DNA of 64,000 nt from NCBI RefSeq assembly GCF_001399755.1, contig NZ_LJCP01000011.1, positions 310,001 to 374,000 of the forward strand, read 5' to 3'. A model generated the notes under the pieces. The model was not told the DNA's origin and made no database searches. It worked only from the letters and a program-made list of their open reading frames with translations. Source of the stretch: Thiohalorhabdus denitrificans. Lineage in GTDB: Bacteria; Pseudomonadota; Gammaproteobacteria; Thiohalorhabdales; Thiohalorhabdaceae. Shown piece after piece: positions 8,454 to 26,321 of the stretch (within the stretch, counting starts at the first letter, position 1; the number at the start of each line of letters is the position of its first letter). The position numbers and the translations under genes are program-made.

Positions 8454-8690
8454 CCCGCCCTTCGGGAAACCGGAAGCTACGGTTATCCGCTTTGGCCTTC
8501 CAGGGTTTCCCCCACTTCGGCCCTGACTGCTCCCCGCTTTATTGTGCTGCGGGTCTTTTAGCGACCGTACCCGCGCGGAGAAGAGCCTGCGGCGTCGGCA
8601 AGGCACCCGCGCAACGAAGCCGGGACTCCAGAGAAGAGCCTGTCGAAACCGACTTTTCCCCTCCTATCGGGCACTGCCAAGGAAATGAGC

Positions 8691-10490: not shown

Positions 10491-10508
10491 CGGATCGGGG
10501 ATCCCATC

Positions 10509-11303
10509 ATGAGGAGCGACAATCGCATCACGCGCCTGGCCACCTGCCTTTCCCTGGCCGGGCTGCTGCTGGCCGGGCCGGCCGTCGCCCCGGCGGACGG
10601 CCAAGCCGAATACGCCAAGGAACGGGGCTGGGAGGCCCCAGTGGACGACCACGCCTGGACCGGCCGCCTGCTGTTCGACCGCCTGGAGTACGCGCGTGGC
10701 GAGGACGAGGACACCGTGAACTATGAGGCCACCGGCTGGTACGGCGGCGACTTCCACCGCGTCTGGCTCGAGGTGGAGGGCGAGAACGTGGTGGACCCCG
10801 CCGGCGAGGGCGGCCACCTGGAGCAGACGGATCTGCTCTACGGCCACCTGATCTCCCCCTTCTGGGACCTCCAGGTGGGCGGCAGTTACGAGCTTGAATA
10901 CGGCCCCGGACCCAACCGGGAGCGCTTCTCGGCGGTACTGGGCCTGCAGGGCCTGGCCCCGCAGTGGTTCGAAGTGGACACCAATCTGCGGGTCTCCGAG
11001 GACGGCGACGCCTCCGCCGACCTGGAGGTGGAATACGACCTGCTACTGTCCCAGCGCACCGTCCTGCAGCCCCGTTTGGAGACCGCCTACGCCTTCAGCG
11101 AGGTGGAAGAATTCGGCGTCGGCGAGGGGCTCACCAACGTGAAGCTGGGCCTGCGCCTGCGCTATGAGATCTTCCGGGAATTCGCCCCTTACATCGGCGT
11201 CTCCTGGAATCGTAAGTTGGGAGATACGGCGGATCTGGCGGAGGCGGAAGGCGGGGACGCCACCCGCTTTACCACCTTGGCCGGGGTTCGCGTGTGGTTC
11301 TGA
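10509..11303 (+). CDS. pcoB: Outer-membrane copper resistance protein PcoB/CopB
   Basis: A 264-residue outer-membrane barrel with a signal peptide (about 1-27, ...LLAGPAVAPADG) that works with PcoA in periplasmic copper handling. The mature protein shows family stretches such as DRLEYARGEDEDTVNYEATGWYGGDFHRVWLEVEGE, YGHLISPFWDLQVGG and FAPYIGVSWNRKLGDTA. It ends in the aromatic VRVWF typical of barrels inserted by the Bam machinery. The long Met-rich N-terminal repeats found in some CopB proteins are absent. It is adjacent to pcoA and almost certainly co-transcribed with it. Confidence 0.93.
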   Translation: MRSDNRITRLATCLSLAGLLLAGPAVAPADGQAEYAKERGWEAPVDDHAWTGRLLFDRLEYARGEDEDTVNYEATGWYGGDFHRVWLEVEGENVVDPAGEGGHLEQTDLLYGHLISPFWDLQVGGSYELEYGPGPNRERFSAVLGLQGLAPQWFEVDTNLRVSEDGDASADLEVEYDLLLSQRTVLQPRLETAYAFSEVEEFGVGEGLTNVKLGLRLRYEIFREFAPYIGVSWNRKLGDTADLAEAEGGDATRFTTLAGVRVWF

Positions 11304-11372
11304 AAGCGGGCCAACCAACCGGCCAACGCCGAGGAGGCCCTGGAAAGGCCTCCTCCCCAGGAGGAAGCAGGC

Positions 11373-11606
11373 ATGATGGGAATGGAAGGATTCGGGGCCG
11401 GCGGCCCCTTCATGCTGCTGGTCTGGATATTGCTGATCGTGGCGGTCATCTTCCTCGTTCGCGGGATGATGTCGGGCTACCCACAGGATAGGGCTGACAA
11501 CCGCTCCGGCCGTAACCGGGCGCGGGAGATCCTGGAAGAGCGCTACGCCAAGGGCGAAATCGATCAGGAGGAGTACCGGCGCAAGCGGGAGGACCTGGAG
11601 GAGTAA
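11373..11606 (+). CDS. SHOCT-domain small membrane protein (copy 2)
   Basis: A 77-residue protein with one transmembrane helix (PFMLLVWILLIVAVIFLV, about 12-29). The C-terminal SHOCT motif ILEERYAKGEIDQEEYRRKREDL is close to that of the protein encoded at 4550-4789. GGAGGAAG lies upstream of the ATG. Its position between pcoB and the copB ATPase, 70 and 42 bp from its neighbours, implies membership of the copper operon. Role unknown; a scaffold or chaperone for membrane pumps is possible. Confidence 0.87.
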   Translation: MMGMEGFGAGGPFMLLVWILLIVAVIFLVRGMMSGYPQDRADNRSGRNRAREILEERYAKGEIDQEEYRRKREDLEE

Positions 11607-11648
11607 TTTTCTCGCGGGGAACTTTTAACCGGCCAACCGGAGGGCCTC

Positions 11649-13736
<2,088 letters not shown>

Positions 13737-13890
13737 GCGGCTGGAGAACGGTAAACCCACGGCCGGAACGGAACCCCCACCTAAAAATTCTGGACCGCGG
13801 GCAACCGCCGCCTCCATGGTGGAAGGAAACGTTTCAACCTTCCTTCCCTACTCAGCCATCCAACCACCTGGAAACCATAGGAGCCCGACC

Positions 13891-14418
13891 ATGAACGCGA
13901 AACTAGGCAACGCCCTCACCGTGCTGGGCACCGCCGCCGCCCTGACCCTTTCCGGACCCGTCCTGGCCAACGAGCACGGCGGCCACGGCAAGATGGGCGG
14001 CGGTCATGGGATGATGATGGACGGTGGCGGCAAGGGCATGATGCCGGGCGACAAGATGATGAAGGTCATGCACGCCCTGGATCTCGACGAGGAACAGGTC
14101 CAGGAGATGACCGACATCCACAAGAAGCTCGCCGAGCATATGGCGGGCACCAAGGTGGAGATGCAGCAGCTGCGCTGGCAGATGGGCCAGGAGATGCGCA
14201 AGGACGAGCCCAGCCCCGAGGAGGTGGGCCGGATTCACGATCAGATCTCGGCGAAGAAGAAGTCCATGCTCCAGGAGAAGGTCCGCACCCGGAACGAGAT
14301 GATGGGCATCCTCTCCGAGGAGCAGCGCGAGAAGCTGAAGCAGATGAAGCAGCGCATGCACAAGAAGCACATGGGAGGCGGGGGCAAGCACGGCTCCAAG
14401 CATAAGGACAAGAACTAG
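13891..14418 (+). CDS. Periplasmic Met/His-rich Spy/CpxP-like protein
   Basis: A 175-residue exported protein with a signal peptide ending in VLANEH. A metal-binding-looking segment follows (GGHGKMGGGHGMMMDGGG, about 31-48). A helical region resembles Spy/CpxP/CnrX-type periplasmic chaperones and sensors, with regular helices such as LDEEQVQEMTDIHKKLAEHM and LSEEQREKLKQMKQRM. The tail is Lys/His-rich. AGGAG eight bases upstream sets the start at 13891. It closes the copper cluster 154 bp after copB. A role in copper buffering or envelope chaperoning is inferred from composition and position. Confidence 0.75.
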   Translation: MNAKLGNALTVLGTAAALTLSGPVLANEHGGHGKMGGGHGMMMDGGGKGMMPGDKMMKVMHALDLDEEQVQEMTDIHKKLAEHMAGTKVEMQQLRWQMGQEMRKDEPSPEEVGRIHDQISAKKKSMLQEKVRTRNEMMGILSEEQREKLKQMKQRMHKKHMGGGGKHGSKHKDKN

Positions 14419-14536
14419 CGGTCCCGCCTATCCCCTCCTGCGCCCTGGCATTTTCCCGGGGCGTTGCCGTCCTTGCTCCGCCGGTTAACTTGTCGCCTTC
14501 CTGCCACCGACCCCGCACCAGTTGGCCCCAACCGGA

Positions 14537-17500
14537 TCAGACCCGCTCTTCCCGGGATTGCCGACCCGCCGCCCCGAAGCGAAGGTACAGCGCCGGCAGC
14601 ACCACCATGTTAAGCACGGTGGAGGACAGCAGCCCGAACAGGATCACCATGGCCATGGGCGCCTGGATCTCGCTGCCGGGCTGGCCGGCGCTTAAGGCCA
14701 GAGGGAGCAGCCCCAGGCCGGCGGACAGGGCGGTCATCAGGATCGGCACCAGCCGCTCCAGGGTGGCGCGGCGCACCGCCTCCAGCGGGCCCTCGCCCTC
14801 CTGCCCGCGCAGGGTGTGGATGTGGCTCACCAGCATGACGCCGTTGCGCGTGGCGATGCCGAACAGGGCGATGAAGCCGATCAGGGTGGCCACCGAGATT
14901 ACCCCGCCGGCCGCGAACAGTCCCGCGATGCCGCCGATCAGGGCCAGCGGCAGGTTGACCATGACCAGCGCGGCGTCGCGCGCCGAGTCGAAGGCCACAT
15001 AGAGCAGCAGGAAGATTCCCGCCAGCACCACCGCCCCCATCCACAGCAGGGCACGGGTGGACTCCTGGGCCGCCTGGAACTGACCGCCGTACTCGATGCG
15101 GTAGCCGGGGGGCAGCTCCACTTGGGCTGCCACGGCATCCTGGGCCTCGCGCACCACGCCCACCAGATCGGATTCGGAGACATTGGCGATGACGATCATC
15201 TTGCGCGCCACGTCCTCCCGCAGGATGGAGTTCGGCCCGCGCGTCTCGCGGATGTCGGCGAGGGCGTGTAGGGGCACCTGGGTGCCGTCGGCGGTGGTGA
15301 TGGGCGCCTCGCCGATGGCGTCGCGGTCGCCCTTGGCGGACGGCGGCAGACGCACCACCAGGTCGAAGGCCTGCTGGCCTTGGAGCACCCGCGACACGGT
15401 GGTGCCGGTGAAGGCGGTGCGCACCGCCCGGCCCACCTCGCCCGTGGTCAGGCCGTGGCGGGCGATGGCGTCGCGGTCGTAGTCCACGGTGAGGAAGGGG
15501 ATCTGCGCGCGCGGCTGGCGCGCCAGGTCCACCACCCCTGGCACCCCTTCCATGACGCCCTGCACCTCCTTGGCCAGGTCCCGCAGCCGGTCCAGCTCGG
15601 GCCCGAACAGCTTCACGGCGATGTTGGCCCGGGTCCCGGAGAGCATGTGGTCGATGCGGTGGGACAGAGGCTGGCCGATGACCACGTTGGTCCCCGGCAC
15701 CGCCTTCAGCTCCTGGCGCAGGTCGGCCAGCAGATCCGCCTTGGGGCGGTCGCCCAGATCCAGGGAGACGTCGATCTCGCTGGCGTACACCGCTTGGGCG
15801 TGGGGGTCCAGCTCCGCCCGGCCTGTGCGCCGCGCGGTGGAGGTCACCTCCGGGTGCTCCAGGAGGATGGCCTCCACCATGCCGCCGAGCCGGTCCGATT
15901 CCTCCAGCGCGGTGCCCGGCCGGGTCACCACGCTGACGGTGAGCGAGCCCTCGTTGAACTCCGGCAGGAAGGACTGCCCGGCCCAGGTCAGGGCCGCCCC
16001 GGCCCCGGCGAGCACCAGCAGGGAAGCGGCGGTCAGCGCCCGCCAGCGATGCAGGGTGGCATCGAGGAGCGGGGCGAAGGCCCGCTTGGTGCGCTCCACC
16101 ATGCGCGGCTCCGAGCCGCGCTTCACGGTCCGGGAGAACGGCAGAGTGACGCTGGCCAGGGCGGGCGTCACGGTGATCGCCACCAGCAGGGATGCGGCCA
16201 GGGCCACGATGTAGGCGAAGCCCAGCGGCCCCATGAAGCGGCCCTCGATGCCGGGCAGGAAGAACAGCGGGGTGAACACCAGGATAATGATGAAGGTGGC
16301 GAAGACGATGGAGCCCTGGATCTCGCGCGTGGCGTCCCCCACCACCCGGATGGCGGGCCGGCGCTCGCCCTCCGGGCGGGCGGTGTTCTCCCGCTGGCGG
16401 CGGACGATGTTCTCCACCACGATGATGGCGTCGTCCACCACCGCGCCGATGGCGATGGCCAGGCCGCCCAGGGTCATGGTGTTGAGGGTGCCGCCCAGCC
16501 CGCGCAGGGCGAGCACCGCCGCCACCAGGGACAGCGGGATGGCCACCAGGCTCACCAGCCCGGCGCGCAGGCTGACCAGGAACAGCAGGACCACCGCCAC
16601 CACCAGGATGGCGCCGTCGCGCAGCGCCTCCAGCAGGTTGTCCACCGCGGTGTGGATGAAATCCGCCTGGCGGAACAGATCGGTCTTGAGGTTCACCCCT
16701 TCCGGCAGGTCGGTGCGCAGCGCCTCGATCTCCGCATCGAGTCGCTCGGTAAGGGCCAGGGTGTTCACCCCCGGCTGCTTCTGGACGCCCAGGACCACCG
16801 CCGGCTCGCCGTTGCGAGAGCCGGTGCCGCGTACCGGGGCAGCACCGACGGTCACCTCGGCCAGATCGCGGACCTTGATGGGGTGGCCGTCGCGGCTGGC
16901 CACCACCGTGTTGCCGATGTCGTCGGGGTCAGACACCCGGCCCAGGCCGTGGATCAGAAGCTCGCGACCGCTGTCCACGTAGAAGCCGGCGGAGACGTTG
17001 CGGTTGGTGTCGCCAACCGCCTCGACCACCCGGTTCAGGCCCACGCCGTGGGCGGCCAGCCGCTCGGGCTGCACCTGCACCTGGTACTGCTTGACGTCGC
17101 CACCGATGGGGATCACCTGGGCCACGCCCGGCACCGCCAGCAGACGCCGGCGCACCGTCCAGTCGGCGGCCGTGCGCAAGGCCATGGGGTCGGCCTCGCC
17201 GGTCACCGCCAGGAACATTACCTCGCCCATCACCGAGGTCACCGGCGCCAGGGTGGGCTGCCCTGCCCCCGGCGGCAATGCCTCGCGCACCCCCTGCAGC
17301 TTTTCGGACACCACTTGGCGCGCCCGGTAGATGTCCGTGCCCCACTCGAACTCCACGGTCACCACCGAGATCCCCACGCCGGTGGAGGAGCGGATGCGGC
17401 GCACCCCCGCCGAGCCGTTCAAGGCCGTCTCCACCGGATGGGTGACCAGGCGCTCCACCTCGCGGGGCGCCATGTCGTGGGCCTCGGTGACCACGGTAAC

Positions 17501-17638
17501 CCGGGGGGCGGTGAGCTCGGGGAAGACGTCCACGGGGCTGCGCATGGACTCGTAGACCCCCCACCCCATGAGCAGGGCGGCCCCCACCAGCACGAACAGC
17601 CGGAACTGCAGGGACCATTGGACGATTCGGCCAATCAT
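14537..17638 (-). CDS. Heavy-metal-efflux RND permease (CusA/CzcA family)
   Basis: Inner-membrane trimeric proton/metal antiporter of 1033 residues that would drive efflux across both membranes with the fusion protein and TolC-like channel encoded upstream. It has the RND layout of 12 helices and two large periplasmic loops. The proton-relay helix 4 reads AIAIGAVVDDAIIVVENIVRR. This differs from the DFG...DG motif of Zn/Co/Cd pumps and the MVDAAIVMIEN form of Cu/Ag pumps, and resembles the poorly characterised HME5-type group. The substrate is therefore open. It is the last gene of the minus-strand efflux locus, behind a REP pair. Confidence 0.9.
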   Translation of the reverse strand: MIGRIVQWSLQFRLFVLVGAALLMGWGVYESMRSPVDVFPELTAPRVTVVTEAHDMAPREVERLVTHPVETALNGSAGVRRIRSSTGVGISVVTVEFEWGTDIYRARQVVSEKLQGVREALPPGAGQPTLAPVTSVMGEVMFLAVTGEADPMALRTAADWTVRRRLLAVPGVAQVIPIGGDVKQYQVQVQPERLAAHGVGLNRVVEAVGDTNRNVSAGFYVDSGRELLIHGLGRVSDPDDIGNTVVASRDGHPIKVRDLAEVTVGAAPVRGTGSRNGEPAVVLGVQKQPGVNTLALTERLDAEIEALRTDLPEGVNLKTDLFRQADFIHTAVDNLLEALRDGAILVVAVVLLFLVSLRAGLVSLVAIPLSLVAAVLALRGLGGTLNTMTLGGLAIAIGAVVDDAIIVVENIVRRQRENTARPEGERRPAIRVVGDATREIQGSIVFATFIIILVFTPLFFLPGIEGRFMGPLGFAYIVALAASLLVAITVTPALASVTLPFSRTVKRGSEPRMVERTKRAFAPLLDATLHRWRALTAASLLVLAGAGAALTWAGQSFLPEFNEGSLTVSVVTRPGTALEESDRLGGMVEAILLEHPEVTSTARRTGRAELDPHAQAVYASEIDVSLDLGDRPKADLLADLRQELKAVPGTNVVIGQPLSHRIDHMLSGTRANIAVKLFGPELDRLRDLAKEVQGVMEGVPGVVDLARQPRAQIPFLTVDYDRDAIARHGLTTGEVGRAVRTAFTGTTVSRVLQGQQAFDLVVRLPPSAKGDRDAIGEAPITTADGTQVPLHALADIRETRGPNSILREDVARKMIVIANVSESDLVGVVREAQDAVAAQVELPPGYRIEYGGQFQAAQESTRALLWMGAVVLAGIFLLLYVAFDSARDAALVMVNLPLALIGGIAGLFAAGGVISVATLIGFIALFGIATRNGVMLVSHIHTLRGQEGEGPLEAVRRATLERLVPILMTALSAGLGLLPLALSAGQPGSEIQAPMAMVILFGLLSSTVLNMVVLPALYLRFGAAGRQSREERV

Positions 17639-17687
17639 GGCGATTCCTTAACGGGGATGCGGAAAGGTGCGGCGGGCGGCTTGCCGT

Positions 17688-17805
17688 TGTAGGAGCGACC
17701 TCCAGGTCGCGACCTTCCGAAGCGGGGCCGCCAGTCCTGGAAAACGCTCCCACGCAGCCAGGCTCATCGGCGAAACTGAGTCGCGGTCTGGAAACCGCTC
17801 CAACA
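17688..17805. repeat. REP pair in inverted orientation (copies 2 and 3)
   Basis: Two REP units face each other: 17688-17713 (TGTAGGAGCGACC..., identical to the reverse complement of copy 1) and 17780-17805 (GTCGCGGTCTGGAAACCGCT...). They are separated by 66 bp and resemble BIME-type doublets. They occupy the gap between the fusion protein and the RND permease genes, where they could form mRNA hairpins that uncouple expression of the pump subunits. Confidence 0.75.
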
Positions 17806-17842
17806 CCATGCCCACCAGGGTGGTCCTGGTGCGGGAAACGAC

Positions 17843-19450
17843 CTAGTGCGCATGCCCGTGGCCAGCGCCGGTATCGCCGGTTGCGGCCAATCGGACCAGG
17901 TAGCTGCCCTGGGTCACCACCCGCTCGCCGGGCGCCAAGCCGCTGGTTACCGCCACGTAATCCCCGTCCTGCATGCCCAGGGTCACCGGGCGGCGGGCGA
18001 AGGATTCGCCGCCGGCCTGGACGTAGACCACCGCCTCCCCGGCCTCCCGCTGCACCGCCGCCTTCGGTACGGCCAGGGCCTTGGTGGCCTCTCCGGTCCA
18101 GACCCGCACCGCGGCGCTGGTGCCGGCGCGCAGGTCGCCGGGGTTGGGTAGGGCGAAGGTGACGGGCACGGTGCGGGTGGCCGGATCCACCGTCTGGCCG
18201 GCGGAAAGCAGGCGGGCGCCGGCGGCGGTATCCACCTTGAGGGCCCGTGATTGCCCCGTGGGCGTGACCCAGGCCCCGGTGGGCTGGGGTAGCCGGCTCG
18301 CTTCCGCCTCCGGGACCCGGGCCACCAGCCACAACCGGCGGCGGTCCACCACCCGCATCAGGTCGTCCCCCTCCCGCACAGAGGTACCCGGCGTAGCGCG
18401 CAGCTCGGCGACCCGGCCCTCGGCCCCGGCGAGCACCGGCACCCCGGCAGGCCCGTCGCCCTCCCCCTTTTCCGGCTGGTAGGCGGCCAAGCGCTGGCGG
18501 GCCGCCTCCAGCCGGGCGCGGGCCACCCGAGCCCGGGAGCGGGCCTCGGCCACCCGGCGCTCGGACACGGCGTCTTTGGCCAGCAGTCCCTCCAGGCGCC
18601 GCCGTTCGCGGCGGGCCATGCGGAATTCGGACTCGGCTTCGGTCACCGCCAGGCGCAGGGTGGCCAGGTCCGTCCCGGTGCCCAGGCGCGGCACGATGCG
18701 GGCCAGCACCTCCCCGGCAGCCACCTGCTGCCCGGCCTCGGGGAAGCCCCCCTCCGGGGCCTCCAGCCGCCCAGGGACCGGGGCGGTAACCCTGCGGTCG
18801 CCGCTCGGGGCCGCCCGCAGGGTGCCGGTGGCCGGCACCGTGGCACGCAGGCGGCGCTTGGTGGCCACCGCCGTGCCGAAGGGCAGCCGCCACTGCTGCT
18901 CCTTGAGGAAGGTGATTTCCCCCTCTTCGCTCCCAGACTGGTCCTCGGGCACCTCGGCGCGGCTGGCATGGACCCGGACGCCCTCCAGCCGGTGCACGGT
19001 GCGCCGGTCGCCCTCCTCCCAGGTCAGGACCATGGTGAAGACCCCCGGCTCGCGGGGCTTGACCTCCGGGGTGTACAGGCCGTCCCGGGTGGGCCTCCCC
19101 ACCCGGAAGCCGGCAACCATCTTTCCGTCGCGGTTCAGGGTGACGGTGAGCCGGCCCGAATCCACCGGCTTGTAGCCGTCCAGCCAGGTGAGATGGGCGG
19201 CCAAGCGGGAGGTCTTGCCGGCCACCAGCACCGGATACTCCACGAACAGCTCGGTGGCGTCGTTGAATCGGGTCACCACCCGGCTGGGCCGTTCGGGGAC
19301 CGCCGCGCCTCCGTCCTCGGCGGCGTGGTCGTGACCGCCTTCCTCGCCGCCGTGGGAATGCCCCGAGTCGCCATCACAGGCGGCGAGGAGCACCGCCAGC
19401 AGCCCGGGGAGCAGGATCCCCAGGCGGCGGACGAACCGCTCAGTGGTCAT
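17843..19450 (-). CDS. RND periplasmic adaptor (membrane-fusion) lipoprotein
   Basis: A 535-residue adaptor linking the RND pump to the outer-membrane channel. The start at 19450 gives a short positive N-terminus, a hydrophobic helix and the lipobox LLAAC (Cys25), so it is a lipoprotein. A His-rich stretch follows (SGHSHGGEEGGHDH). An unusual beta domain around 60-160 precedes the barrel-sandwich, a coiled coil (about 265-330) and the beta-barrel. The C-terminus ends GHGHAH. The gene overlaps the upstream His-rich gene by 11 bp. His clusters at both ends suggest metal capture, as in CusB/CzcB relatives. An alternative start is two codons upstream at 19456. Confidence 0.87.
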   Translation of the reverse strand: MTTERFVRRLGILLPGLLAVLLAACDGDSGHSHGGEEGGHDHAAEDGGAAVPERPSRVVTRFNDATELFVEYPVLVAGKTSRLAAHLTWLDGYKPVDSGRLTVTLNRDGKMVAGFRVGRPTRDGLYTPEVKPREPGVFTMVLTWEEGDRRTVHRLEGVRVHASRAEVPEDQSGSEEGEITFLKEQQWRLPFGTAVATKRRLRATVPATGTLRAAPSGDRRVTAPVPGRLEAPEGGFPEAGQQVAAGEVLARIVPRLGTGTDLATLRLAVTEAESEFRMARRERRRLEGLLAKDAVSERRVAEARSRARVARARLEAARQRLAAYQPEKGEGDGPAGVPVLAGAEGRVAELRATPGTSVREGDDLMRVVDRRRLWLVARVPEAEASRLPQPTGAWVTPTGQSRALKVDTAAGARLLSAGQTVDPATRTVPVTFALPNPGDLRAGTSAAVRVWTGEATKALAVPKAAVQREAGEAVVYVQAGGESFARRPVTLGMQDGDYVAVTSGLAPGERVVTQGSYLVRLAATGDTGAGHGHAH

Positions 19451-19739
19451 GGCCATGCCCGTCGGCATCCCGATGCGCATGCTCGTCGTGGTCATCCCCG
19501 GACTCGCCCTGCTCGTGGCCGCTGTGGCCTTCTTCGTGCGCGTAGTCGCCGTGGGCCTCTCCGACCTCGCCCGGACCCTGGTCCTCCCCCGCGTAGAAGG
19601 CTTCCGTTTCGGGCGCATCGCTCGCCCCGGATTCATGGCCATGGGCGTGGCCGCCGGAATGGTCGTGGCCCTCCCCGGCGACGGCGGTACCGGTGCTCAG
19701 GGCGATGGCAAAGAGGCTAATCAAGAGGCTATGCTTCAT
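19440..19739 (-). CDS. Small periplasmic His/Asp-rich metal-binding protein
   Basis: A 99-residue protein with a signal peptide (MKHSLLISLFAIALSTGTAVAG). The mature part is extremely rich in His, Gly, Asp and Glu (GHDHSGGHAHGHESG near the start, DEHAHRDADGHGHDH at the end). No fold is evident. The composition fits a periplasmic buffer for Zn, Ni, Co or Cu. It overlaps the adaptor gene by 11 bp, so the two are translationally coupled, and it probably supplies the efflux pump. Confidence 0.8.
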   Translation of the reverse strand: MKHSLLISLFAIALSTGTAVAGEGHDHSGGHAHGHESGASDAPETEAFYAGEDQGPGEVGEAHGDYAHEEGHSGHEQGESGDDHDEHAHRDADGHGHDH

Positions 19740-19818
19740 GGGTTACTCCCGTTTCGGGTGAGATTGAAGAGGCCGCACGGCGGGCCGGTTGGCCCCACAG
19801 GATCTTCGGTATCGAGCA

Positions 19819-19844
19819 ATCGCCCGCTAAAGCGGGCTCCTACA
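19819..19844. repeat. REP-type palindromic element, copy 4
   Basis: A palindrome reading CGCCCGCTAAAGCGGGCTCC followed by TACA. It shares the GCTCCTACA end with the copies near 2809 and 17688 but has a different stem. It lies in the gap between the DUF3147 gene and the His-rich protein gene. Confidence 0.65.
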
Positions 19845-19910
19845 CCGGCCTTTTTTAAGGCTGGGGGCTTTCAAAACCTTTCTGGAGCAAAACACTCCTT
19901 GTCCCCCTGC

Positions 19911-20261
19911 TCAGAGCCGGATGCCGAAGCGGGCTAGCACCAGGACCATGCCCCCGTAGGCGAGGGCCGTCGCGGCGATGGCCATGACCAGGCCCAGGGG
20001 GAAAGGCACGCCCCGGTGAAGCAGCCACGGGAGAAGCACAAACAGCACCAGGGAGGGCAGCACCAGCCAGGCCACGCTGGTGGCAAGGGCGCTGACCTTG
20101 CCCACGTCCCCGGTATCCACATACAGCCAGACCATGGCCAGCACGGACGTAATGGGGACCGAGGCCAGGATGCCCCCGACCAGGGAGCTCCGCTTGGCCA
20201 CCTCGGAAATGGCGACCACCAGAATCGCGGTGATCACCGCCTTGATCAGGTAATAGCCCAC
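19911..20261 (-). CDS. DUF3147-family small membrane protein
   Basis: A 116-residue inner-membrane protein with four hydrophobic segments. The N-terminus YYLIKAVITAILVVAISEVAKRSSLVGGILASVPITSVLAMVWLYVDTGD is characteristic of DUF3147 proteins, whose role is unknown. It is 33 bp downstream of the TolC-like gene. Relatives are found beside metal-efflux genes, but whether this one takes part in efflux cannot be said. Confidence 0.82.
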   Translation of the reverse strand: MGYYLIKAVITAILVVAISEVAKRSSLVGGILASVPITSVLAMVWLYVDTGDVGKVSALATSVAWLVLPSLVLFVLLPWLLHRGVPFPLGLVMAIAATALAYGGMVLVLARFGIRL

Positions 20262-20294
20262 TGCCCCTTTCCCCGGATCTCGGCTGTACAGGAA

Positions 20295-21572
20295 CTACGG
20301 ACGGGAACCGGCGGTGCGCACCAGATCTATCCAGCTCGCCCGGGCGGCACGCGCCATCTCCAGGGCGCGCAAGCGGGCATCGAGCTGGCCGCGGTAGGCA
20401 TCCAGCAGCTCCAGGATGCCCAGCTCCCCGGCGCGGTAGGCAGTCTCCGCGATCTCCGTCACCTCCCGGGACTTGGCCAGGGCCTGCTGCCGGAACTCGG
20501 TGGTGGCCTCGTCCAGCTCCCGCGTCTGCCGCCACAGGCCGCCCACCCGGGCTCGGGCCTGCTCGAGCAGCCGCCGGTAGCGGGCCTCGGCCCGGGTCTG
20601 GCGGGCGCTGGCGGCAGCCGCCTGCGCCTGGCCCCGGTCGAAGACCGGCATGGGAAAGGCCAGCTCCAGTAGCGGCCCGCCCCCTTCCGCCCCGGGCTGG
20701 TCCACCGTGGTGTAGCCCAGGCCCACGGTGGGGTCGGGGATCCAGGCCCGATTCGCCGCCCGCCGGCTGAGCCCGGCGGCGCGCGCCTCGGCCTGGAGGC
20801 GCCGCAGGTCCGCCCGCCGGTTCAGCGCCTCCCGGTAGCGGGCCAGGGAGGCCACCTCCCCGGGACGCAGGGTTCCCGCCACCTTCTCCGGCAAGCTGGC
20901 GGATTCGGGCAGCAGGGCCCGCAGGGCGGACCAGGCGCGCGCCCGCTCGGCCCGGGCCTGACGTAATTGGGCGCGCAGCGCCGCCCCCTCGCGCTCCAGC
21001 CGGCGCTGGTCGTACCCGGAGGCGGCCCCGGCCCGGCGCCGCTCGGCGACGATGCCGGCCACCCGGTCGAGGCGCTCGAGGCTCTCCTGCAGGGCCGCCA
21101 CCCGCCGCCGCTGGGCCAGCACCACAAAAAAGCGCTCCCGGACCCGGGCCCGGTGCTCCAGGCGCGTCCAGGTGTTGCCCCGCCGCACGCCCTCGGCGCG
21201 GGCACGGGCCGCCCGGGTCCGCAGGCCGCGCTGGCCGGACAGGTCGAACTCCTGGGATAGGCTGTAGAAGCGTTGGGTGGTTTCGCTGCCGTCCGCCGAG
21301 AAGCGCTCCTGGGAAAGGTTCAAGCGCGGATTGGGCCACAGCGACGCCTCGAGGGCCCGGCTCTCCGCCAGCTCCACCTCCGCCTGGAGCTCCCGCTGCA
21401 GGGGGGCGTACTCCTCGGACAGACTAAGGGCCCGCTCGATAGTAAGCGCCGAGCCCGCCCCAACCGCTGCCGTGCTCGGACCCAGGCCAGCGAGCAGGAG
21501 AAGCCCCACGGCCGAAAACCGACCTATGATCGGTTTTTTGGTCGTGGCGAAAGAAATTCGGGGTCCGCCCAT
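20295..21572 (-). CDS. TolC/CusC-type outer-membrane efflux channel
   Basis: A 425-residue outer-membrane factor, the exit duct for the RND pump. It shows the OEP family pattern: LTIERALSLSEEYAPLQRE, long helices rich in Ala/Arg/Glu, WPNPRLNLSQERF, and a second repeat with IPDPTVGLGYTTVD and AYRAGELGILELLDAYR. The start at 21572 has AGAGGA six to seven bases upstream and yields an N-terminus MGGPRISFATTKKPIIGRF before the hydrophobic export signal. A GTG about 22 codons in is an alternative. The codons for KKPIIGRF overlap a BlaI-type operator. It starts 10 bp after the protease gene ends. Confidence 0.85.
   Translation of the reverse strand: MGGPRISFATTKKPIIGRFSAVGLLLLAGLGPSTAAVGAGSALTIERALSLSEEYAPLQRELQAEVELAESRALEASLWPNPRLNLSQERFSADGSETTQRFYSLSQEFDLSGQRGLRTRAARARAEGVRRGNTWTRLEHRARVRERFFVVLAQRRRVAALQESLERLDRVAGIVAERRRAGAASGYDQRRLEREGAALRAQLRQARAERARAWSALRALLPESASLPEKVAGTLRPGEVASLARYREALNRRADLRRLQAEARAAGLSRRAANRAWIPDPTVGLGYTTVDQPGAEGGGPLLELAFPMPVFDRGQAQAAAASARQTRAEARYRRLLEQARARVGGLWRQTRELDEATTEFRQQALAKSREVTEIAETAYRAGELGILELLDAYRGQLDARLRALEMARAARASWIDLVRTAGSRP
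21514..21538 (-). promoter_or_regulatory. Second BlaI-type operator, inside the 5' coding region of the channel gene
   Basis: Over 25 bp, 22 positions equal the operator in front of the repressor gene. It contains AAAACCGA and ATGATCGGTTTTT half-sites around the same centre. It begins 34 bases after the start codon of the TolC-like gene. Binding here could block elongation or a local promoter, or it could mark a downstream true start. Confidence 0.6.
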
Positions 21573-21582
21573 GTGGCTTCCT

Positions 21583-22548
21583 CTAGAGGTGGCCCAGGAG
21601 GGTTTCCAGGCCGTGGTGGAACTGCGGAGAAAAGGAGAGTGCCGCCAGGGCGAGCCCCACCAGGGCGGAGCCCGTTCCCCGCCAAGGTTGAAGGCCGGCG
21701 GGGACATCCTCCAGGAGCGCCTGTACCCGGGCCTCCAGGGGATCCCCCGTGAACCCCGGCCCCGGGGCGGGAACGGGGCGCATGCGGGCCACTGCCAGCA
21801 GCGCCTCGGCCACCGTGACCCGATCGCCCACGGTTCGAGCGGCCGCCTCGTCGGCGGCGCGCTCCACGGCCAGTCCGAGCTCCCGGTACAACGCCCGGCC
21901 GGTACCCGGGAGGTGCAGGACCGTGCCCAGCCGCGCCAAAACCAACCGCAGGGGGTCCCGGCGAAGCCGATGGGCGGCCTCGTGGGCCCGCACCGCTCGG
22001 TCCTGCTGGGGAGAAAGGAGGTCCAACAGCCCACGGGAGAACAGCACGTTGGGCCGCAGCAAGCCCACCGTGGCGGCTACGGGCTGGGCAGTTTCCAGGA
22101 TCCGGGTCGGCCCCTGGCGCTCCTCGCGGGCCACCCTCCGCAGCGTCCGCCACGGTCGATTGGCCCGCTCCAGCACTCGCACCTTGTACACCCCGCCCAA
22201 GGTCAGGCCCGCGGCCAACAGGCCCAGCAGGGCCCACGCCCCGGGGACCTCCGGCGTGGTGCCGGGGTGCAGCAGGCAGAGGTGGCTGTGGTGGGTACCG
22301 TGCAGCAGGCAGTGGTCGGCCGTCAGGCCCAGCGCGGCCGAGACAGAAGGAGCGACCACCACGGCCACCGCCATCAGCCCGGCCAGCAGGGGGAGGAGCG
22401 CCCAGACCAGCAACAGATTGGCCTGCTGCTCCACGGGCATTCGTTGCAGCAAGCCCAGGACCCTGGGCCGAACAAGCTGGCTGAGGGCCGCGGCCACTGC
22501 TCCAGCCACCAGCCCCACCGCCGCCAGGATCAGGATCAAGGAGGGCAT
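21583..22548 (-). CDS. BlaR1-like M56 membrane metalloprotease with a Cys/His-rich periplasmic loop
   Basis: A 321-residue integral membrane protease predicted to inactivate the BlaI-type repressor. The zinc-protease motif is HEAAH (189-193, in VRAHEAAHRL) with a third ligand near E229. There are four hydrophobic segments (about 1-22, 42-66, 103-120, 293-306), as in the membrane core of BlaR1. The C-terminal penicillin-binding sensor of BlaR1 is missing; only about 15 residues follow the last helix. Between helices 2 and 3, extracytoplasmic in BlaR1, lies DHCLLHGTHHSHLCLLHPG (78-96) with two Cys and six His, a plausible metal sensor. Its start is 2 bp after the repressor stop. Confidence 0.85.
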   Translation of the reverse strand: MPSLILILAAVGLVAGAVAAALSQLVRPRVLGLLQRMPVEQQANLLLVWALLPLLAGLMAVAVVVAPSVSAALGLTADHCLLHGTHHSHLCLLHPGTTPEVPGAWALLGLLAAGLTLGGVYKVRVLERANRPWRTLRRVAREERQGPTRILETAQPVAATVGLLRPNVLFSRGLLDLLSPQQDRAVRAHEAAHRLRRDPLRLVLARLGTVLHLPGTGRALYRELGLAVERAADEAAARTVGDRVTVAEALLAVARMRPVPAPGPGFTGDPLEARVQALLEDVPAGLQPWRGTGSALVGLALAALSFSPQFHHGLETLLGHL

Positions 22549-22550
22549 GG

Positions 22551-22949
22551 TCAGTCCGAGCCCTTGGCGCCCTGGGCCCGCTTCCAAGCGATCAGCGCCT
22601 CCAGGCGGTCGAGGGCCGCCTCATCCTGTTCGGCCGCAAAATCCACGAAGGCGGTGAGCAGGGTATCGGCCCCCTCCTCGCCGGCCACCGGCGCGGTGGC
22701 CCCCTCGATCAGGCGCGCCAGCAGTTCCTCGCGCTCCAGGGCGGGGCGGTAGGTGTAGGCGTGCCCTTCCTTGGTCCGATGCAGGAGCTCCTTGCGGTAC
22801 AGCCGCTCCAGGGTGGACTGGATGGTGTTCAGGGAGATGCCGCGGCGCGCCCCGAGGCGCCCGTGGACCGCCTTGGCGTGGTCCGCCCCGCGGGCCCACA
22901 GATCCTCCAGCACCGCCACCTCGAGCTCGCCCAACCGCAGGTTTGTCAT
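22551..22949 (-). CDS. BlaI/MecI/CopY-family transcriptional repressor
   Basis: A 132-residue dimeric winged-helix repressor. The N-terminus LRLGELEVAVLEDLWARG and the recognition region ISLNTIQSTLERLYRKELLHRTKEGHAYTYRP are typical of BlaI (compare the conserved TV..TL.RL..KG). The C-terminal half provides dimerisation and, in BlaI, the cleavage site. No CopY-type CxCxxxxCxC metal hook is present, so metal sensing must be by the partner protease. The start at 22949 has GGAAGGA upstream. The ATG at 22985 lies within the operator. It is coupled to the protease gene. Confidence 0.9.
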   Translation of the reverse strand: MTNLRLGELEVAVLEDLWARGADHAKAVHGRLGARRGISLNTIQSTLERLYRKELLHRTKEGHAYTYRPALEREELLARLIEGATAPVAGEEGADTLLTAFVDFAAEQDEAALDRLEALIAWKRAQGAKGSD

Positions 22950-22971
22950 ATGAGAATGTCCTTCCGCCCCA

Positions 22972-22996
22972 AAAAACCGATCCATGATCGGTTTTT
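22972..22996 (-). promoter_or_regulatory. BlaI-type operator upstream of the repressor gene
   Basis: Perfect 11-bp arms AAAAACCGATC and GATCGGTTTTT are separated by CAT. The palindrome is centred 35 bp before the repressor start codon, between it and the end of the CDF gene, where autorepression is expected. A weak -35 (TTGCGC) lies upstream on the minus strand. A near copy is present at 21514-21538. Confidence 0.8.
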
Positions 22997-23032
22997 ACCC
23001 TAACCCGCGCCGCGGGCGCAACTCCTCCGCGG

Positions 23033-23677
23033 TTACCCCGTGGCGCCTCCGCCGTCACCCGCGGGGACCATCCGCCATTGCCTCCAGGAATCAACCAGGA
23101 CCTCCCAGGCGGAATGCAGGAACACGGCGGCGATCACCAGGCCCATGGCCAAGTCCGGCCACGGTGTGGCGGTAATCGCCACCGCGCCGGCAGCCAGGAT
23201 CACCCCGGTATTGGCGATCAGGTCGTTGCGCGAGCACAGCCACACCGAGCGCATGTTGATGTCCTCGCCCCGGTGCCGCCACAGCAGGGCGAAGCACACT
23301 ACATTGGCGGCCAGGGCCACGGCAGCCACCGCCCCCATGGGCAGGGCGGCAGGCAGTTCCGGCAGGAAGGCCCGGTAGGCGGTCTGGCCCAGCACGAACA
23401 GGCCGAAGGCCAGCATGATCAGGCCCTTGAACAGGGCGGCCCCGGCCCGCTTGCGGACGCTGGCGCCCACTACCACCAGGCTCACCCCATAGGTGAGGGC
23501 GTCACCGAGCATGTCCAGGGAGTCCGCCAGCAGGGCCACCGAGCCGATCAGCAGCCCGGCGGTAAGCTCCACGCCGAACATGACCGTATTGATGCCCAGC
23601 ACCGCCTTCAGGGTGCGGGACTGGTGCTGGTTGGTAGCGGTCGGGGCGCAGGAATCGTCGCCGCAGCATCCGCTCAC
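23033..23677 (-). CDS. Short cation diffusion facilitator-like transporter
   Basis: A 214-residue inner-membrane protein with the six-helix CDF core but no C-terminal cytoplasmic domain. The N-terminus SGCCGDDSCAP carries three cysteines. Helix 2 reads ADSLDMLGDALTYG and helix 5 CSRNDLIANTGV, in which the usual His/Asp site is partly replaced by Cys/Asn. These changes suggest a softer or different metal, but no substrate can be assigned. It precedes the repressor gene by 83 bp on the same strand. It may be transcribed from its own promoter, since the BlaI-type operator lies between the two. Confidence 0.82.
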   Translation of the reverse strand: MSGCCGDDSCAPTATNQHQSRTLKAVLGINTVMFGVELTAGLLIGSVALLADSLDMLGDALTYGVSLVVVGASVRKRAGAALFKGLIMLAFGLFVLGQTAYRAFLPELPAALPMGAVAAVALAANVVCFALLWRHRGEDINMRSVWLCSRNDLIANTGVILAAGAVAITATPWPDLAMGLVIAAVFLHSAWEVLVDSWRQWRMVPAGDGGGATG

Positions 23678-23734
23678 GATTGCCTCCTAGGACTCAGGAT
23701 CTTCCGGGTTCTTGGGCGTGCCGCCGGCCCCATT

Positions 23735-24313
23735 TTACAGAGTCGCGGCCCGCCACAGGGCCCAGGCACCAAAGGCCAGGAACAGCGCCGCCGCCACCCG
23801 GTGCACCCAAACCGCCGGGACGCGGCGCAGCAGGGTGGCGCCGACGACCACTCCGAGCACGGACACCAGCCACAGGGCCAGGGTTCCGCCCAGGAAGACC
23901 GCCAGGGTGTCGCCGGTGCTCGCGGCCAGGGCCACCAGGGCGAGCTGGGTCTTGTCGCCGAGCTCGGCGACGAAGATCAGGGCGAAGCTACCGAGGGCCA
24001 CCCGCCAGCCGCCCCGGGCGGCCACGTCCTCCACCTCCTCGTCCTCCTCGCCCTCGCGCCAGATGCGGTAGCCAAAGGCCAGGAACAGCAGCCCCGCCGC
24101 CAGCAGGATCCAGCGCTCGGGCACCAGCTCGTAGAGGGCCGCGCCCACCGCCACCGCCAGCACATTCAGCACCAGGAAGGCGCCCAGGATGCCGGCCAGG
24201 ACCGGGGCGGCCCGGTGGCGGTGGGCCAGGCTCATGGCCACCAGCTGGGTCTTGTCGCCCAGCTCGGCGATGAACAGGACGGCGAAGGTGGAGGCGACGG
24301 TGGCCAGGCTCAT
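23735..24313 (-). CDS. GDT1/UPF0016-family cation transporter
   Basis: A 192-residue membrane protein with two homologous halves, each carrying the signature ELGDKTQ (FIAELGDKTQLVAM near 14-27 and FVAELGDKTQLALV near 112-125). Members of this family (MneA, yeast Gdt1, TMEM165) move Mn2+ or Ca2+, most often exporting Mn2+ in bacteria. The acidic linker EGEEDEEVEDV lies between the halves. It is the first gene of the minus-strand metal locus, 57 bp upstream of the CDF-like gene. Confidence 0.9.
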   Translation of the reverse strand: MSLATVASTFAVLFIAELGDKTQLVAMSLAHRHRAAPVLAGILGAFLVLNVLAVAVGAALYELVPERWILLAAGLLFLAFGYRIWREGEEDEEVEDVAARGGWRVALGSFALIFVAELGDKTQLALVALAASTGDTLAVFLGGTLALWLVSVLGVVVGATLLRRVPAVWVHRVAAALFLAFGAWALWRAATL

Positions 24314-24560
24314 GGGCGCTCCTCGGGCCGGGGAAGCGGTACAGGATACCGCCCCAGGCCCGCCGGCTCATCCCGTCACGGTCCCAGGCCTGCCCGCACG
24401 TTTGTTTGGCGGGCACCGCCCCTGCCCGAGTTAGCAGCGGCCCAGCGCACGAGGCCGAGGAGATCCCCCTTCCCGGCCCCGGGATCGGCCACAAGGCGGG
24501 TGAAGGTTCCTGCCTCTAGTTCCTGCGGTTAACGGGAAAGGCGGCCTTCCCCCGGAACCG

Positions 24561-24596
24561 TTGACAGGGTGAAGAACTGCGGATTAAAGAATTAAT
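24561..24596 (+). promoter_or_regulatory. Predicted promoter and ArsR-type operator
   Basis: A consensus -35 TTGACA (24561-24566) is followed after 18 bp by TAAAGA. An AT-rich dyad, ATTAA-AGAA-TTAAT (24583-24596), overlaps the -10 region about 30 bp before the arsR-family start. The dyad is a likely autoregulatory site; AT-rich dyads are typical of ArsR/SmtB regulators. Confidence 0.55.
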
Positions 24597-24625
24597 AGAA
24601 TTTGCAACTCCTGGACTACTGAACC

Positions 24626-24991
24626 ATGAGCCAGCAGCCCGCCCGTTTTGCCCTGTTCTCGGAGGTCTTCAAGGCCCTCGGCCACCCCAAGCGCCTGGAG
24701 ATCATCCACGCCCTACGCGCGGGGGAGCGCACGGCAACCCAGCTCGCCGAGGCCACCAACCTCTCCAAGACCGCGGTCAGCCAGCACCTCTCCGTGCTCA
24801 AGGCCCAGGCCCTGGTGCTGTGCGACAAGCGGGGCTCCTTCTGCTACTACCGGGTGGCCTCGTCGGCGGTGTTCTCCGTGTGCGAGGGGGTGCGCCAGCT
24901 GGTGCTGGAGCAGGTGGAGTCCTTCGAGGCGGTGCGGCCCTTCCTGGCCCCCCTGGACGGCGGCCGCACCGGGGAGGCCGGCGATGGCTGA
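24626..24991 (+). CDS. ArsR/SmtB-family transcriptional regulator
   Basis: A 121-residue winged-helix repressor. The DNA-binding region reads FKALGHPKRLEIIHALRAGERTATQLAEATNLSKTAVSQHLSVLKAQALV, followed by the wing CDKRGSFCYYRV. Cysteines occur in the wing (LCDKRGSFCYY) and helix 5 (FSVCEG), but there is no ELCVCDL metal motif. The effector may be a metal, a metalloid or reactive sulfur. Together with the downstream transporter and rhodanese, a sulfur-linked signal is reasonable but unproven. It overlaps the transporter gene by 8 bp. Confidence 0.88.
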   Translation: MSQQPARFALFSEVFKALGHPKRLEIIHALRAGERTATQLAEATNLSKTAVSQHLSVLKAQALVLCDKRGSFCYYRVASSAVFSVCEGVRQLVLEQVESFEAVRPFLAPLDGGRTGEAGDG

Positions 24992-26321
24992 CGTTCCGGA
25001 AGGGAAAGGACACGCCGCCTACACCCACGGCATCCGCCCCAATCTGGGCCAGTTCCTCTTCCAGATGCTGCAGGTCTTCTTCGTCGGCCTGACCATCGGC
25101 CTGCAGCGCAACGTGGTGCCCGCCCTGGCCGAGGAGGAGTTCGGCCTCGCGCCCGGCTCCTACCTCCTGTTCATGGCCTTCATCATCAGCTTCGGCTTCG
25201 TGAAGGGGGCGCTGAACTTCGTGGCCGGGCGGCTCTCGGAGCGGGTGGGCCGGCGCCGGGTACTGCTGTGGGGCTGGCTAGCGGCGCTGCCCATCCCCTT
25301 CCTGATCCTCTACGCGCCCTCCTGGGACTGGATCGTCGCCGCCAACGTCCTGTTGGGCGTGAACCAGGGCTTCGCCTGGTCCATGACCGTCACCTCCAAG
25401 GCGGACATCACCCGCGCCGAGCAGCGCGGCCTGGCCACCGGCTTCAACGAGTTCGCCGGCTACACCGGCGTGGCCATCGCCGGCGTCGTCACCGGCTACC
25501 TGGCGGCGGACATGGATCCGCGCTGGGCGCTGTTCCTGTTCGGCCTGACCGTGGCCCTGGTGGCCCTGGCCACCGCCTGGCTGTTCGCCGCCGAGACCCT
25601 GCACTGGGCGCGCGCCGAGGCCCACGCCCACGCCAGCGGCACACACAAGGGACCCCGCCCGCGCTTCCCCGAAAACGTCTCCGACCATCCGGGCACCCGG
25701 GAGATCTTCACCCTGGTCTCCTTCCGCCACCGCACCTTCGCCGCCCTGTCCCAGGCAGGCAGCGTGGAGAAGTTCGTGGACGCCCTGGTGTGGGCGTTCT
25801 TCCCCGCCTGGCTGCACGCCCAGGGGCTCACCGTGGTAGCCATCGGCTGGGTGGTGGGCGTGTTCGGCGTGGTGTGGGGCGCCAGCCAGCTGTGGACCGG
25901 CCCCCTCTCCGACCGGATCGGCCGCAAGGGCCCCATCGTGGCCGGCATGTGGATCTGCGGGGCCGGGGTGGCGGCCACCCTCCTGGTGGAGGGCTTCTGG
26001 CTGTGGTGCGCCACCGCCGCGGTGGCCGGGGTGGGCATGGCCCTGCTCTACCCCACCCTCATCGCCGCGGTGAGCGACATCTCCCACCCCAACTGGCGGA
26101 GCTCGTCGCTGGGCGTCTACCGCTTCTGGCGGGACACCGGCTACGGCCTCGGCGGCCTGGCCATCGGCCTCGCCGCCGACGCCACCGGCGCCCTAGAGAC
26201 CGGCTTCTGGCTCACCGCCATCGCCATGGGGCTGTCGGGCCTCTGGGTGCTGCTCGCCGCCGAGGAGACCCACCCGCGCCTCAACCCCGCTCCCCAACTC
26301 CGGCCCGCCGTGGAGGAATGA
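24984..26321 (+). CDS. Major facilitator superfamily transporter
   Basis: A 445-residue inner-membrane protein with 12 predicted helices and the MFS loop motifs GRLSERVGRRRVLL after helix 2 and GPLSDRIGRKGPI in the second half. A His-containing central loop (ARAEAHAHASGTHKG) separates the halves. The ATG at 24984 has GGGGAGG six bases upstream and overlaps the regulator gene, so expression is coupled. The substrate is unknown. Regulation by an ArsR protein and linkage to a rhodanese suggest export of a metal, metalloid or sulfur compound. Confidence 0.88.
   Translation: MADVPEGKGHAAYTHGIRPNLGQFLFQMLQVFFVGLTIGLQRNVVPALAEEEFGLAPGSYLLFMAFIISFGFVKGALNFVAGRLSERVGRRRVLLWGWLAALPIPFLILYAPSWDWIVAANVLLGVNQGFAWSMTVTSKADITRAEQRGLATGFNEFAGYTGVAIAGVVTGYLAADMDPRWALFLFGLTVALVALATAWLFAAETLHWARAEAHAHASGTHKGPRPRFPENVSDHPGTREIFTLVSFRHRTFAALSQAGSVEKFVDALVWAFFPAWLHAQGLTVVAIGWVVGVFGVVWGASQLWTGPLSDRIGRKGPIVAGMWICGAGVAATLLVEGFWLWCATAAVAGVGMALLYPTLIAAVSDISHPNWRSSSLGVYRFWRDTGYGLGGLAIGLAADATGALETGFWLTAIAMGLSGLWVLLAAEETHPRLNPAPQLRPAVEE

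Follow-up and report, generated by a model that had tools for sequence, protein, structure and literature searches.

We describe a pair of coupled genes in Thiohalorhabdus denitrificans, encoding a BlaI-type repressor and a BlaR1-like membrane metalloprotease devoid of a penicillin-binding domain, which precedes a set of heavy-metal efflux genes and shares an operator with it. Of several possible explanations for this arrangement we favour, and consider fairly probable, a proteolytic relay that signals metal stress in the envelope across the membrane: metal would bind at a loop of the protease, so switching the protease on, and BlaI would be cut and the pump expressed. Across several phyla, bacteria seem to have exchanged the penicillin detector of BlaR1 for a short Cys/His-rich loop, a probable sensor of toxic metals on the outer side of the inner membrane. 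As the penicillin-binding domain is missing, we do not class the protease as BlaR1; the claim is that it would work in a BlaR1-like manner.

Organisation of the locus

The window, which is the whole stretch of DNA analysed (64,000 nucleotides), corresponds to positions 310,001–374,000 of NZ_LJCP01000011.1 (GCF_001399755.1), and the coordinates given for this genome are positions within it. On the minus strand the gene order is blaI, protease, TolC/CzcC-like channel, PRK09272-family protein, His-rich protein, CzcB-like adaptor and RND pump. The features are:

22973–22996, no strand assigned: operator 1, the palindrome AAAACCGATCCATGATCGGTTTTT, upstream of blaI
22551–22949, minus strand: BlaI-type repressor of 132 aa, with ATG at 22949 (PF03965, E 1.8e-18)
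22647–22652, minus strand: candidate cleavage site A100–F101 of the repressor, aligned with N101–F102 of BlaI (PMC9834060)
21583–22548, minus strand: BlaR1-type membrane metalloprotease of 321 aa, without penicillin-binding domain (HEAAH, four predicted helices, fold)
22267–22314, minus strand: Cys/His loop H79–H94, extracytoplasmic by prediction (Cys conservation; no Lys or Arg in the loop)
21970–21984, minus strand: HEAAH zinc-protease motif H189–H193, with E229 and D233 beyond it (conservation in relatives)
21604–21618, minus strand: C-terminal H311-x3-E315, candidate further ligands directly past the last membrane helix (conservation)
21515–21538, no strand assigned: operator 2, palindrome between the protease gene and tolC
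20295–21572, minus strand: TolC/CzcC-like outer-membrane channel (PF02321, E 3.9e-25), with alternative starts ATG 21572 and GTG 21509
19911–20261, minus strand: small membrane protein of the PRK09272 family (NCBIfam, 138 bits, above cut-off)
19440–19739, minus strand: His-rich exported protein of 99 aa (from its sequence; no Pfam or NCBIfam family above cut-off)
17843–19456, minus strand: CzcB-like adaptor lipoprotein with a His-rich N-terminus (RND_mfp, 134.6 bits)
14537–17638, minus strand: heavy-metal RND pump, helix-4 motif GGLAIAIGAVVDDAIIVVEN (best solved relatives ZneA, 472 bits, and CusA, 468 bits)

The gene calls, strand and coordinates of the original prediction were correct on re-check. 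It had also described the blaI and protease genes as coupled, and the blaI stop indeed shares TGACCATG with the protease start. The downstream genes that it named were confirmed, while the gene for the small membrane protein at 19911–20261 had been overlooked. According to family searches and comparison with solved structures, the set of TolC channel, adaptor and CusA/CzcA-type RND pump downstream of the protease is complete. The alternative starts of tolC bracket operator 2, which is thus inside the coding sequence if the ATG at 21572 is used; in relatives, this operator is intergenic. A search for RNA families gave no match within window positions 14000–25200.

The DNA adjoining the locus (23033–24991) encodes a CDF transporter, a GDT1-type exporter and a divergent ArsR regulator, and the order CDF–blaI–protease is also found in a sister genome (L010). 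A copper-resistance cluster lies beside the RND operon on the plus strand (8685–14418), with genes for a multicopper oxidase, an outer-membrane CopB-like protein, a P1B ATPase (CPH motif) and a CpxP-like protein rich in Met and His.

A BlaR1-type protease without the sensor domain

The protease, 321 residues in total, ends about 15 residues past its last predicted membrane helix, and neither Pfam nor an AlphaFold2 model revealed a penicillin-binding domain in it, so bearing out the earlier claim that this sensor domain is missing. Pfam reports M48 above its cut-off (30.0 vs 20.3 bits), and M56 (PF05569) is missed with a weak score of 12.8 bits against a cut-off of 31, so that the protein is placed with the BlaR1/M56 kind because of its fold match and its BlaI partner and not because of the Pfam score. 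The fold match was obtained with the AlphaFold2 model (mean pLDDT 79.4, pTM 0.79; one plasmid-derived row was left out of the input alignment), for which the first match in a structure search was BlaR1 from S. aureus (8exs_A; probability 1.00, TM-score 0.52 on the query) at a modest E of 0.011. With BlaR1 as the top solved fold, the predicted retention of its membrane core is moderately well supported. The loop region of the model has low confidence (mean pLDDT about 52–56). The HEAAH site, also anticipated, was located at H189–H193, and the catalytic residues H189, E190, H193, E229 and D233 are kept in 56–57 of 58 relatives. A BlaI-type repressor is encoded together with the protease, both in the window and in the relatives.

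Conservation of the Cys/His loop

As a Pfam M56 search of the T. denitrificans genome returned no match above threshold, the family was traced with the protein itself and with profiles, using whole-genome protein and profile searches, a plasmid search and a scan of 84,980 genomes. Alignment A1 proved too diverse for scanning a collection, and A3 took its place. The resulting set has 67 usable rows including the window, 58 of them at <90% identity, and covers Zeta-, Gamma- and Betaproteobacteria, Myxococcota, Desulfuromonadales, Acidobacteriota and Krumholzibacteriota.

The loop between helices 2 and 3 carries two Cys (C80, C91) and six His (H79, H83, H86, H87, H89, H94) at the position originally given, although its length is 16 residues and not 17 as had been stated. 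It is free of Lys and Arg, which fits an outside position under the positive-inside rule, and the equivalent loop of BlaR1 was shown by experiment to be extracytoplasmic (PMC3356374).

Despite an overall identity of only 20–35%, the loop residues are conserved: among the 58 non-redundant relatives, C80 is present in 54 and C91 in 55, H79, H87 and H94 in 51 each, and H89 in 50, while the C-terminal pair is retained in 54 (H311) and 52 (E315). One of the two peptide patterns used in the genome scan covered part of the loop, so that this subset is biased towards it; among rows found by whole-protein, profile or plasmid searches alone, both Cys are present in 21 of 24. The corresponding loop of other M56 proteins has 0–1 Cys and 0–2 His, with loop limits set by a simple hydropathy rule. 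Judged from these alignments, the conservation of the loop Cys and His exceeds chance. Conservation among orthologues had been named from the outset as a test of the proposed metal loop; this test was run and the idea survived it.

Some members have a different loop. In L090, L091 and L103, the three of those 24 rows that do not have the Cys, a HWHH cluster of His is present, and L173 has a long His array in place of the Cys pair; these loops are perhaps tuned to other metals. The loops of L145 and L170 have three Cys and at most one His, and are perhaps variants for another ligand.

The loop could alternatively be a redox sensor, in which a disulfide would link C80 to C91 and the protease would be switched by a change in the loop, brought about by oxidants or by thiol stress (metal-induced thiol stress included). 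No loop residue is better conserved than the two Cys, which are on the oxidising side of the membrane, as would suit such a switch. However, H79, H87, H89 and H94 are conserved nearly as well and a plain disulfide needs none of them, the three Cys-less members retain their His, L173 has gained a His array, and the linked genes are those of metal pumps. We therefore regard disulfide-based sensing as unlikely.

Genes linked to the repressor–protease pair

In 28 of the 36 members with at least 7 kb of downstream sequence, a heavy-metal RND pump is encoded on the same strand; a TonB receptor is found within 6.5 kb in seven, and neither in one. None of 23 other M56 loci, taken as controls, has an RND pump (Fisher p 5.5e-10, a value that overstates independence as the loci share descent). 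The co-occurrence of Cys/His-loop M56 proteins with metal efflux, put forward as a check together with the original prediction, is thus evident. Classified by the helix-4 motif of the pump, seven loci have the CzcA type (DFG..VDG) and 21 others, among them that of the window, a second class (AI or AV, G..VDD), four unclassified pumps being left out of these counts. That two pump classes occur speaks for a functional association maintained over time and against a single inherited block, and the same neighbourhood is repeated in several phyla.

The TonB-adjacent subset implies that an RND pump is not the sole output of the BlaI–protease family. A shortened loop (HC...C..H) occurs in L088, L092, L101 and L102 and a longer variant in L089, all of them beside TonB receptors, yet L134, L144 and L159 have the full loop and also a TonB receptor nearby. 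We considered whether the TonB-linked forms arose only once; the tree, which requires at least four changes, does not support this.

DUF6488 proteins are repeatedly encoded close to the module (L085, 17547–17888; L095, 1395–1817; L096, 8770–9117), accompanied in L085 by a HupE/UreJ-like transporter; at least two of these proteins are rich in His. A Peribacillus plasmid (L009, NZ_CP085715.1, 122432–123672) carries, adjoining an arsenic cluster, a BlaI gene paired with that of a short M56 protein whose loop region contains some Cys and His.

It could also be argued that the loop holds a structural zinc, while the true signal comes from elsewhere in the envelope: from protein misfolding, from altered lipids, or from a partner in the periplasm, for which the adaptor and the His-rich protein would be candidates. 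Cys2His2-like spacing is frequent in structural zinc sites, and a His-rich exported protein is encoded within the operon, but this protein may vary among relatives, and metal is the simplest signal where two classes of metal pump are controlled in several phyla. This makes a purely structural metal improbable in our view.

As to which metal is sensed under the proposed relay, none of the 28 classified pumps has the CusA (Cu/Ag) helix-4 motif. The window's pump, one of the 28, reads AIAIGAVVDDAIIVVEN, and the aligned Met residues of CusA are mostly replaced in it. CzcA-type pumps act on Zn, Cd and Co. Given the lack of CusA motifs and the seven CzcA-type pumps, a divalent metal (Zn, Cd, Co or Ni) appears a likelier signal than Cu or Ag, although a likely copper ATPase and a multicopper oxidase are encoded nearby on the opposite strand.

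The repressor and its predicted cleavage site

The repressor exceeds the cut-off of Penicillinase_R (PF03965; 67.4 vs 22.6 bits) and is the sole protein of this kind found in the genome. BlaR1 of S. aureus cleaves BlaI between N101 and F102, and self-cleavage of BlaR1 likewise puts a Phe into the S1' pocket (PMC9834060). At the aligned position a small residue followed by Phe is found in 50 of 53 family repressors; by alignment position this is A100–F101 in the window.

It is very improbable that the repressor itself senses metal as in CopY, with the protease merely removing it or serving elsewhere. Its best NCBIfam match is CopY_TcrY, far under the cut-off (40.9 of 122 bits), but the CopY-type CxC...CxC hook is present in none of the 58 family repressors, 33 of which are free of Cys. 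The window's repressor is among these 33, with no Cys in 132 residues, in line with the earlier statement that the BlaI partner has no metal hook of its own. Sensing by BlaI itself was rejected for the lack of a Cys hook.

A shared operator

Two near-identical palindromes occur in the window, one before blaI and the other between the protease gene and tolC. Their consensus is AACCGA-N7-TCGGTT, with 12 fixed bases. For operator 1, the expectation in shuffled sequence is 0. Throughout this genome the exact core occurs in operators 1 and 2 and nowhere else. With up to 2 mismatches allowed, 44 of the 58 loci have the operator upstream of blaI and 30 of 58 have it no more than 300 bases past the protease gene, mostly at 40–55 bases; elsewhere in these loci, in a total of 824 kb, it occurs 25 times. 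Exact copies are present upstream in 20 loci and downstream in 8, and are absent from the remaining 824 kb. Ten related genomes contain exact copies, 17 in all, and 13 of these are at a family locus. The operator is conserved across phyla, position included. BlaI, MecI and CopY have a different operator, TACA/TGTA (PMC7253601).

The upstream consensus AAAACCGATTGACRRTCGGTTTT contains TTGAC, similar to a sigma-70 -35 hexamer, so that the repressor may act by promoter occlusion; the window's own copy is without TTGAC. This shared operator is the strongest evidence that the repressor would control the pump operon as well as its own, and its presence at both promoters strongly supports the earlier claim that the pair controls the efflux locus.

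An ordinary switch for β-lactams or cell-wall stress, adjoining the pump by chance, would accord with the response of known BlaI/BlaR1 pairs to β-lactams, but is very unlikely given the missing sensor domain, the restriction of exact operators in the genome to this locus and the recurrence of the neighbourhood in several phyla. A β-lactamase regulon was rejected on operator specificity.

A model for the proposed relay

For the proposed relay we envisage that, at rest, the BlaI-type repressor occupies the two operators and represses its own operon as well as the efflux operon. Metal would then bind the extracytoplasmic Cys/His loop, possibly together with the C-terminal His-x3-Glu. In BlaR1, helix 3 directly follows the extracytoplasmic loop, and movement of this helix and of the protease domain has been linked to the loop being displaced from the sensor domain (PMC9834060). 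Since there is no sensor domain here, a loop that binds the ligand itself would be the most direct way to move helix 3 in the same manner. The metal-bound loop would shift helix 3, comparable to the displacement of the equivalent BlaR1 loop, and so release the cytoplasmic zinc protease, which would cleave BlaI ahead of the conserved Phe101, with pump expression to follow. The C-terminal His-x3-Glu, situated at the point where BlaR1 runs on into its sensor domain, may complete the metal site.

We infer metal as the ligand, activation of the protease, cleavage of the repressor and derepression, and as these are the biochemical steps, the original interpretation is only partly supported, although independent tests that it could have failed were passed. 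The original prediction had not included the operators, the C-terminal His-x3-Glu, the Phe at the BlaI cleavage site, the occurrence in several phyla or the TonB-adjacent members. We would give about an even chance to the more general notion that sensor-less BlaR1-type proteases form a widespread class of transmembrane metal sensors, which would detect metal by means of the loop and His-x3-Glu and cut a BlaI-type repressor, and so govern RND efflux in some hosts and TonB-receptor genes in others, with a single type of operator across phyla.

Comparison with known systems

The closest described systems are BlaR1/BlaI and MecR1/MecI of S. aureus and B. licheniformis, which also couple a BlaI-type repressor with a four-helix membrane zinc protease and regulate themselves via paired operators. 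HExxH and ExxxD, the fold found by structure search and the Phe at the repressor cleavage site are common to both. Unlike BlaR1 and MecR1, the present protease has no penicillin-binding sensor but a short Cys/His loop and a conserved C-terminal His-x3-Glu; the operator is AACCGA-N7-TCGGTT instead of TACA/TGTA, and the output appears to be metal efflux.

The CopY/CopR copper repressors belong to the same repressor superfamily and also control metal export. In CopY, metal is bound by CxC motifs of the repressor itself (PMC7253601). CopY has no partner protease. The repressors described here have no such hook and use another operator.

Known regulators of envelope metal efflux are two-component kinases, sigma/anti-sigma systems and cytoplasmic metal-binding repressors. 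In CzcRS, CusRS and CnrYXH an envelope metal signal turns on an RND metal pump, as proposed here, but through histidine kinases or an anti-sigma factor and not through cleavage of a BlaI-type repressor.

The same order, blaI–protease–tolC–adaptor–CusA/CzcA-family pump, is found on the P. aeruginosa plasmid p2017-45-85 (L008, CP109756.1, 400204–407362), where the M56 protease has the loop Cys, is about 29% identical to that of the window and is encoded with both operators and a CzcA-type pump. This locus is annotated gene by gene, with no system described. The plasmid is a 530-kb conjugative element of a clinical P. aeruginosa, in which an IS256-like element and a relaxase gene adjoin the module.

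No description of the blaI/protease pair or of the operon was found in openly licensed PubMed Central papers, and we regard the module as a variant of the BlaR1/BlaI kind so far without description in the open literature searched. If the relay is real, transmembrane proteolytic signalling would join the known mechanisms of envelope metal sensing, being present in several phyla and on a conjugative P. aeruginosa megaplasmid, and the BlaR1 core would be a general transmembrane transducer with a swappable input, for which the 321-residue protease offers a minimal model of how BlaR1 carries its signal through the membrane.
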